From positions 6,262,001-6,326,000 of the forward strand of contig NZ_BJOR01000001.1 in the NCBI RefSeq assembly GCF_006540305.1: 64,000 nt of DNA. The letters run 5' to 3'. The notes beneath the pieces were generated by a model. The model did no database searches. It saw nothing but the letters and a program-made list of their open reading frames with translations, and was not told where the DNA came from. Made by a program: the position numbers and the translations under genes. Shown here one piece after another: positions 46,080-46,616 of this stretch (within the stretch, counting starts at the first letter, position 1; each line of letters starts with the position of its first letter). This DNA is from Streptomyces sp. 6-11-2 (GTDB lineage Bacteria > Actinomycetota > Actinomycetes > Streptomycetales > Streptomycetaceae).

Positions 46080-46126
46080 GCGTCAGGGCGGTGTCAGTGT
46101 GATGTCAGCGGGAGCTGGCACAGTAT
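46080..46126 (+). promoter_or_regulatory. SARP-type operator and -10 of the tRNA-like array
   Basis: Heptamers GCGTCAG, GTGTCAG and ATGTCAG begin at 46080, 46091 and 46102, an exact 11-bp period. CAGTAT at 46121-46126 is a good actinomycete -10 placed 12 bp after the last repeat. Transcription would start about 46133, some 30 bp before the first tRNA-like unit. Confidence 0.7.
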
Positions 46127-46163
46127 TTCTCGTGAGCGGGACGGGAAACCGGACCGAACGCCA

Positions 46164-46246
46164 GGAGAGGTGCCCGGAGTGGTTTATCGGGGCCGTGCTA
46201 TCGGTCGGGTCCTTGGGCCCTCGCAGGTTCGAATCCTGCCCCTCCG
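46164..46246 (+). tRNA. tRNA-Ser(GCU)-like unit 1 (degenerate acceptor)
   Basis: 83 nt. Same layout as unit 2, but the 3' acceptor strand has lost one T (CCCTCC context instead of CCTCTCC), so one acceptor pair is disrupted. T arm (GCAGG-TTCGAAT-CCTGC) and long variable arm are intact. It may be non-functional or processed differently from units 2-4. Confidence 0.5.
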
Positions 46247-46259
46247 CGGAACATCGCCA

Positions 46260-46343
46260 GGAGAGGTGCCCGGAGTGGTTTATCGGGGCCGTGCTATCGG
46301 TCGGGTCCTTGGGCCCTCGCAGGTTCGAATCCTGCCCTCTCCG
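46260..46343 (+). tRNA. tRNA-Ser(GCU)-like unit 2
   Basis: 84 nt without encoded CCA. Acceptor GGAGAGG pairs fully with CCTCTCC, discriminator G. D region CCC-GGAGTGG...GGG. Variable arm GGGTCC-TT-GGGCCC is a class II long arm. T arm GCAGG-TTCGAAT-CCTGC is canonical. The anticodon arm is abnormal: CCG-TGCTAT-CGG (3 bp) or GGCCG-TGCTAT-CGGTC (5 bp at the cost of the D stem), with a 6-nt loop holding U-GCU-A. Serine identity features (long variable arm, discriminator G, GCU) are present. About 5 nt shorter than usual tRNA-Ser. Confidence 0.6.
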
Positions 46344-46356
46344 CGGAACATCGCCA

Positions 46357-46439
46357 GGAGAGGTGCCCGGAGTGGTTTATCGGGGCCGTGCTATCGGTCG
46401 GGTCCTGGGCCCACGCAGGTTCGAATCCTGCCCTCTCCG
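46357..46439 (+). tRNA. tRNA-Ser(GCU)-like unit 3
   Basis: 83 nt. Identical to unit 2 except the variable arm, which has one T fewer in its loop and AC instead of TC before the T stem. Acceptor and T arms are fully paired. Same short anticodon arm with TGCTAT loop. Separated from unit 2 by the 13-nt spacer CGGAACATCGCCA, which recurs between all units. Confidence 0.6.
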
Positions 46440-46452
46440 CGGAACATCGCCA

Positions 46453-46535
46453 GGAGAGGTGCCCGGAGTGGTTTATCGGGGCCGTGCTATCGGTCGGGTC
46501 CTGGGCCCACGCAGGTTCGAATCCTGCCCTCTCCG
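46453..46535 (+). tRNA. tRNA-Ser(GCU)-like unit 4
   Basis: 83 nt, identical to unit 3. Followed by CGCAGTGACACG instead of the repeat spacer, then a long terminator. The four units share the same shortened anticodon arm, so the change preceded the amplification or was kept by selection. Confidence 0.6.
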
Positions 46536-46553
46536 CGCAGTGACACGCCCCGC

Positions 46554-46616
46554 CGCCAGGGCCGGGTGGGCCGGAATCCCCTTATGACTGGGGTGCCGGC
46601 CCGCCCGGCCCTGGCG
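46554..46616 (+). terminator. long terminator hairpin after the tRNA-like array
   Basis: A 21-bp stem (CGCCAGGGCCGGGTGGGCCGG with its complement at 46596-46616, one G-U pair) plus an inner ATCCCC/GGGGT pairing. It separates the array from the ACP-PKS genes, so the array is an independent transcription unit. Confidence 0.85.

Follow-up and report, generated by a model that had tools for sequence, protein, structure and literature searches.

A tandem array of four tRNA-Ser-like genes beside a VlmA-like gene in Streptomyces sp. 6-11-2: probable non-decoding seryl carriers of a biosynthetic cluster

The stretch of DNA analysed here (the window; 64,000 nucleotides, G000:C1:6262001-6326000) belongs to the 8.7-Mb genome of Streptomyces sp. 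6-11-2 (three contigs, 100% complete). Inside a biosynthetic gene cluster it carries a tandem array of four tRNA-Ser-like units, spanning positions 46164-46535, each 83-84 nt long and repeated with a period of 96-97 (Table 1). The initial annotation had reported four near-identical units at these starts, and the array proved real when scored with a covariance model (73.6-85 bits). A search of the same genome revealed no further copies beyond these four.

Table 1. Array, predicted control elements and neighbouring genes, in positions of the window
Feature	Position	Strand	Evidence or remark
SARP regulator	43704..44597	+	BTAD + Trans_reg_C
DUF2156/PF09924 protein, VlmA-like aminoacyl-tRNA transferase candidate, divergent from array	44985..46043	-	PF09924 E 2.4e-60; start codon not fixed
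SARP-type triple direct repeat before array, likely SARP site (predicted)	46082..46108	+	GTCAG x3, 11-bp spacing
CAGTAT, possible -10 element	46121..46126	+	read by eye
tRNA-Ser-like unit 1	46164..46246	+	covariance model 73.6 bits; 3' acceptor strand one base (T) short
tRNA-Ser-like unit 2	46260..46343	+	covariance model 84.9 bits
tRNA-Ser-like unit 3	46357..46439	+	covariance model 85 bits
tRNA-Ser-like unit 4	46453..46535	+	covariance model 85 bits
Hairpin 3' of array, possible transcript end	46554..46616	+	arms 46554-46580 / 46590-46616, 27 nt, 89% complementary, imperfect
Second triple repeat, upstream of PKS gene	46637..46663	+	repeat search of window
Type I PKS (KS-AT-DH-ER-KR-ACP)	47060..53548	+	domain match
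Acyl-CoA/AMP ligase	53721..55277	+	domain match
Thioesterase	55378..56160	+	domain match
Third triple repeat, upstream of aldehyde dehydrogenase operon	60061..60087	+	repeat search of window
Aldehyde dehydrogenase family protein	60134..61759	+	domain match
Acyl-CoA-dehydrogenase-like protein, candidate N-hydroxylase (VlmH-like)	61823..62971	+	weak acyl-CoA-dehydrogenase match

The divergent gene next to the array, taken in the initial annotation for a VlmA-like transferase, does encode a PF09924 protein, the likeness to VlmA holding at family level. Beyond the window (stretch L048) the operon continues with genes for a class III aminotransferase, a flavin reductase (Flavin_Reduct 2e-34), an AurF-like protein (weak match), KASIII, ACP, KS, an IS110 element, an amino acid permease and a seryl-tRNA synthetase (SerRS). 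The IS110-type transposase gene (L048 7756-9084) sits inside the cluster, between the KS and permease genes. The SerRS gene (L048 10775-12082) lies 8.8 kb past the window end and is one of two in the genome above the TIGR00414 cut-off, so that the cluster possesses a second, VlmL-like SerRS of the kind present in some valanimycin-type clusters. Because SerRS was found in just 11 of 40 fetched stretches, against 20 with DUF2156, charging may fall to the housekeeping SerRS. Candidate equivalents of VlmH, VlmB and VlmO can be named in the cluster, the last with no Pfam match. By analogy, the cluster has the outline of the aliphatic azoxy clusters described for valanimycin and azodyrecin, in whose route, as given in the part of the source consulted, an amine is N-hydroxylated, receives an amino acid from tRNA via VlmA and then undergoes N-N bond formation (PMC9379638).

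Each unit of the window combines the parts of a class II tRNA-Ser: a 7-bp acceptor (GGAGAGG/CCUCUCC), U8, a D arm with a 4-bp stem (CCCG/CGGG) and GG in the loop, a long variable arm, a T arm (GCAGG-UUCGAAU-CCUGC) and G73. The tRNA-Ser shape and the complete pairing of the acceptor in units 2-4 had both been described from the letters, and were borne out by the sequence, the shape also by the comparative covariance model; the acceptor of unit 1 is damaged. The anticodon arm, likewise reported at the outset as too short, is GCCG-UGCUAU-CGGU, about 14 nt with a 6-nt loop, whereas the canonical arm has 17 nt and a 7-nt loop. Measured against a canonical elongator tRNA-Ser, the units thus have acceptor, D, variable and T arms together with G73 and lack a 17-nt arm with a serine anticodon. 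No CCA is encoded in them; among the genome's own tRNA-Ser genes (GCU, UGA, CGA and GGA) it is encoded in the GGA gene and absent from the other three.

Standard models recognise the units poorly. ARAGORN called three of the four tRNA, under the label "Asp(atc)", and its labels for relatives in other genomes range over Asp, Ile, Thr, Val, Ala, Arg, Leu and others, or none at all, such that genes of this kind are misnamed or missed by the program. At gathering score no Rfam family matched the window units; the best weak match was tRNA-Sec (RF01852; 25.5-30.5 bits against a gathering score of 47), while weak plastid and microRNA matches were taken as chance. With RF00005, units 3 and 4 reached 32.4 bits and the four tRNA-Ser genes of the genome 51.6-56.6 bits. 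Folding of single units returned no cloverleaf, and the comparative model was relied upon. It was built from 42 relatives in other genomes, with the window rows excluded, and in the window its next best match after the four units scored only 13.6 bits. In the same genome, ARAGORN labels as Asn(gtt) a tRNA with a long variable arm whose distance to the housekeeping serS is about 0.9 kb (L045 49-137; G000:C1:3559988-3560075).

The SARP-type promoter postulated for the array corresponds to three GTCAG boxes at 11-bp spacing, followed by a possible -10 element. The window contains exactly three such triple repeats, one each before the array, the PKS gene and the aldehyde dehydrogenase operon, against none in 100 shuffles. 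SARPs bind repeats of this kind, and the valanimycin SARP VlmI is described, in the consulted part of one account, with three-repeat sites before vlmA-vlmH (PMC10972967). Both marks of a SARP regulon, 11-bp-spaced repeats near a promoter and a SARP gene in the cluster, are present, and we infer from sequence that the SARP would bind the repeats and activate the array. A 21-bp terminator had also been proposed; a hairpin does lie 3' of the array, but it is larger than 21 bp and imperfect, and no T-run follows it in the sequence.

The same arrangement accompanies relatives of the array elsewhere. Both DUF2156-linked and scattered units have repeated RTCAG upstream, in most cases two or three boxes spaced by 11 bp. 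CTGnCAnTnT-like letters come next, and then a leader resembling GTGAACGGCACGGGAAACCGG. Among 38 further units from six genomes, one of them DUF2156-linked (L279), at least two boxes were found in 35 and three in 21; for the scattered units alone the counts are 34 of 37 and 20 of 37, respectively. Of 8000 random 140-nt stretches, 70 contained a pair of boxes. The boxes are also present before the copies of Salinispora, Micromonospora and Microbispora. No boxes were seen upstream of the unit in L180, and in L177 a further unit occupies that place.

Beyond Streptomyces, the named DUF2156 loci with a unit include those of Kitasatospora, Actinacidiphila, Salinispora, Micromonospora and Microbispora. 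The family set comprises 150 distinct sequences, taken from loci that overlap in part. They were gathered with a pattern allowing 5-6 changes per end, so that the near-constancy of the ends is to be read with stronger departures left uncollected. Across this set the alignments exhibit fixed ends and a free middle: entropies of the acceptor and T stems are 0-0.16 bit, G73 is found in 149 of 150 units and the GG of the D loop is invariant. Unit length ranges from 82 to 105, and the varying parts are the anticodon and variable arms. The anticodon arm measures 13-33 nt and has the canonical 17 nt in 6 of the 121 units parsable by a simple rule; relatives have no common anticodon, yet the anticodon arms of four of them, folded alone, all formed hairpins. 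As read from sequence, the anticodon arm survives as a stem-loop and not as a decoding arm, with the parts read by SerRS retained. Covariation is slight because the stems hardly vary, five pairs being changed on both sides (reached by 1 of 500 shuffles), with further pair types at a level seen in 181 of 500 shuffles. At T-stem pair 51-63, 147 of 150 units have A-U, the remaining three being read out of register, and the four tRNA-Ser of the genome have G-C. A51-U63 is described as a weak EF-Tu pair in the cell-wall tRNA-Gly of Staphylococcus aureus (PMC4052509, consulted in part). In a genome of another family, three identical divergent units with RTCAG boxes upstream were observed (L333; G668:C134:51979-52378).

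According to the part of the literature consulted, the anticodon plays no role in serine identity, which depends on the variable arm, G73 and the acceptor stem (PMC9976931). With the decoding arm free and the rest fixed, the units would therefore likely be charged with serine.

The distribution of the RNA follows that of the DUF2156 gene. In a survey of 392 Streptomyces-type genomes, with cut-offs of E<=1e-9 for the RNA and E<=1e-60 for DUF2156, 49 genomes contained both, 31 DUF2156 only, two the RNA only and 310 neither (51 RNA-positive and 80 DUF2156-positive genomes; Fisher 1.8e-38, a value uncorrected for relatedness of the species). The strict cut-off for the RNA was chosen because, at E<=1e-3, ordinary tRNA-Ser genes, scoring near 48-50 bits, brought covariance-model matches in 345 of 392 genomes. 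Matches in G047 and G105 (55-60 bits) were rejected as units, being canonical tRNA-Ser(UGA); the second match of G142 (55-60 bits) and that of G395 (61 bits) lie near these scores. A first BLAST scan gave relatives in 64 of 392 genomes, the weakest matches covering the T arm only, and the number of BLAST-positive genomes without a close DUF2156 was 15 at E<=1e-3, two at 1e-6 and 0 of 40 at 1e-8.

The initial annotation had named the same array in strains lacking DUF2156 as an observation that would speak against its reading. At the cut-off used, no genome of the 392 carried the RNA without a DUF2156 gene: 49 of the 51 RNA-positive genomes encode a close homologue, and the other two (G168 and G300) a distant one (34-36% identity) beside the RNA, together with a SARP and a class III aminotransferase. 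In both, a small related cluster was observed (L260 and L261), consisting of a divergent unit and genes for a GDSL protein, the aminotransferase, the distant DUF2156 and the SARP; the unit is preceded by TCTCAG-like repeats spaced at 11 bp. In a class-wide set of 389 genomes, some of them common with the first set, all four RNA-positive genomes, the window's own included, were among the eight that were DUF2156-positive. A unit was found in the fetched stretch for 65 of the 80 best DUF2156 loci from named species; it is divergent in 54 (median distance 172 nt), just upstream on the same strand in three and downstream in eight. Not every DUF2156 requires the RNA, since 31 of the 80 DUF2156-positive genomes (about ten of these with distant proteins, near 300 bits) and five of the 80 named genomes show no unit. 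Other members of DUF2156 may use cellular tRNA, and for azodyrecin the consulted part of the source has Ala-tRNA from the cell as proposed donor (PMC9379638).

Of the 15 unit-free named loci, ten belong to genomes that carry units outside the fetched stretch; for the other five (L141, L154, L187, L188 and L190) no unit was found in the genome. The region upstream of DUF2156 was read in eight unit-free loci: five (L142, L145, L150, L156 and L181) keep the promoter without a unit, L124 and L154 keep the boxes too, and the contig of L141 breaks off within a unit. Where the promoter is kept and the unit lost, the RNA, if needed, must therefore sit elsewhere in the genome. The genomes of the five loci and of L124 all have units elsewhere; none was found in that of L154, though the boxes are kept. 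ARAGORN found no other tRNA in the unit-free loci L154, L187, L188, L190 and L197, and coordinates suggest that the units of L196 and L197 lie on the same contig as DUF2156, at some 27 and 14 kb.

In many genomes units occur away from the cluster, in unrelated places and with no common downstream gene. The highest copy number seen was 15, in Streptomyces griseofuscus DSM 40191 (L181), with one unit on a plasmid record; copy numbers from the covariance-model scan, made under strict filters on at most ten candidates per genome, are lower bounds. A search with one unit matched 9 of 72,556 plasmid records (H1-H9), all from Streptomyces. Some of these records carry four places, and the best match overlaps no annotated feature.

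Taken together, these results render it quite probable, on comparative grounds, that the array encodes dedicated, non-decoding Ser-tRNA carriers, which would donate serine through the adjacent VlmA-like DUF2156 protein to a hydroxylamine, likely in an azoxy-type pathway. The non-translational seryl-tRNA supply proposed in the initial annotation finds comparative support in the co-occurrence with DUF2156 and in the fixed acceptor and T arms. In such a scheme the SARP would bind its repeats and switch on transcription of the array together with the biosynthetic operons, and the RNA would be processed, then CCA-tailed and serylated, perhaps by the cluster's own second SerRS. The DUF2156 protein would move serine to the hydroxylamine made by the cluster on the way to the presumed azoxy-type product, while the charged RNA, lacking a decoding arm and bearing a weak EF-Tu pair, would stay out of translation and off the ribosome. 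In other strains, the scattered units would act in trans to increase the amount of this carrier.

Valanimycin biosynthesis, with VlmA, the second SerRS VlmL and the SARP VlmI, resembles the present cluster in its PF09924 transferase (at family level), second SerRS and three-repeat SARP sites; there, however, the portions of the accounts consulted have Ser-tRNA coming from ordinary cellular tRNA-Ser and mention no dedicated tRNA gene, in contrast to the array found here (PMC9379638, PMC4052509, PMC10972967). Streptomyces atratus is the source of ElaO of elaiomycin, according to the consulted part of the source (PMC11705231). In strain JCM 3386 of this species, RTCAG boxes are followed by a unit that precedes DUF2156 by 100 nt and shares its strand, whereas the window array is divergent; this locus (L186) is likely the ela cluster. 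The cell-wall tRNA-Gly of S. aureus, from which dedicated non-ribosomal tRNAs as such are already known, shares with the family its reservation for a non-ribosomal transferase and the weak A51-U63 pair but, unlike the family, loses G18G19 (PMC4052509, in part). It also differs in its amino acid and in being neither under SARP control nor part of a cluster. Its ordinary anticodon arm is kept. The long variable arm and serylation by SerRS without use of the anticodon are common to tRNA-Sec and allo-tRNAs (PMC7609411 and PMC9976931, consulted in part), which decode on the ribosome; the window units have a 7-bp acceptor and a 4-bp D stem, and their tRNA-Sec match stays below the gathering score. 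A search of titles and abstract beginnings in the open-access literature found no report of such tRNA genes in antibiotic clusters.

Other readings of the array were weighed against the same evidence. Co-occurrence with DUF2156 and the promoter would be equally expected of a SARP-controlled regulatory or sensing RNA whose tRNA-Ser shape binds SerRS or DUF2156 and, for example, ties the pathway to serine supply. This is unlikely, given that the family retains G73 and the 3' acceptor strand that a chargeable tRNA would have, that the units stand alone, in tandem or scattered without a common downstream gene, unlike leader RNA, and that up to 15 copies fit supply better than control. A working, if odd, translational tRNA reading AGC/AGU or another codon during production is extremely improbable: UGCUA around the GCU triplet in the window units does resemble the loop of tRNA-Ser(GCU), but relatives lack a common anticodon, differ in arm length and receive diverse ARAGORN labels or none.

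Decayed tRNA-Ser copies, one of the alternatives raised at the outset, or a spreading tRNA-derived repeat that hitch-hikes with the cluster would account for the degenerate anticodon arm and for copies that multiply and scatter, also onto plasmids. The near-invariant acceptor and T arms of the 150 distinct sequences, in which only the anticodon and variable arms vary, contradict decay; moreover, the promoter travels with the copies and, at the cut-off used, the RNA was absent from genomes without DUF2156, which leaves this explanation highly improbable. A recombination site or a phage origin is disfavoured as well, since scattered copies keep the promoter and one unit used as query matched none of 50,697 phage records. 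It is very unlikely, finally, that the same carrier RNA delivers another amino acid or serves another acceptor, such as a lipid or peptide, in a pathway that is not azoxy. DUF2156/PF09924 also includes lipid aminoacyl transferases, but G73 and the long variable arm point to serine; the second SerRS is in keeping with azoxy clusters, as are the flavin reductase, aminotransferase, AurF-like protein and SARP, and the elaiomycin producer S. atratus has the RNA beside DUF2156.

The reading of the array as dedicated seryl carriers likely extends to an actinobacterial class of carrier RNAs: tRNA-Ser derivatives relieved of decoding, which would be reserved for carrying amino acids in secondary metabolism, with their own transferase, a SARP promoter and often a synthetase, and which in many strains would form a scattered, co-regulated family of up to 15 copies supplying the pathway in trans. 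How aminoacyl-tRNA leaves the ribosomal route for natural-product enzymes is stated as an open question for valanimycin in the consulted part of one source (PMC4052509). If the proposal is true, a dedicated non-decoding tRNA under the control of an antibiotic cluster would answer how Ser-tRNA is diverted to VlmA. The RNA would then also serve as a marker for finding such clusters, offer a candidate for a natural SerRS/tRNA pair that works outside translation, and represent a case of tRNA evolution released from decoding.
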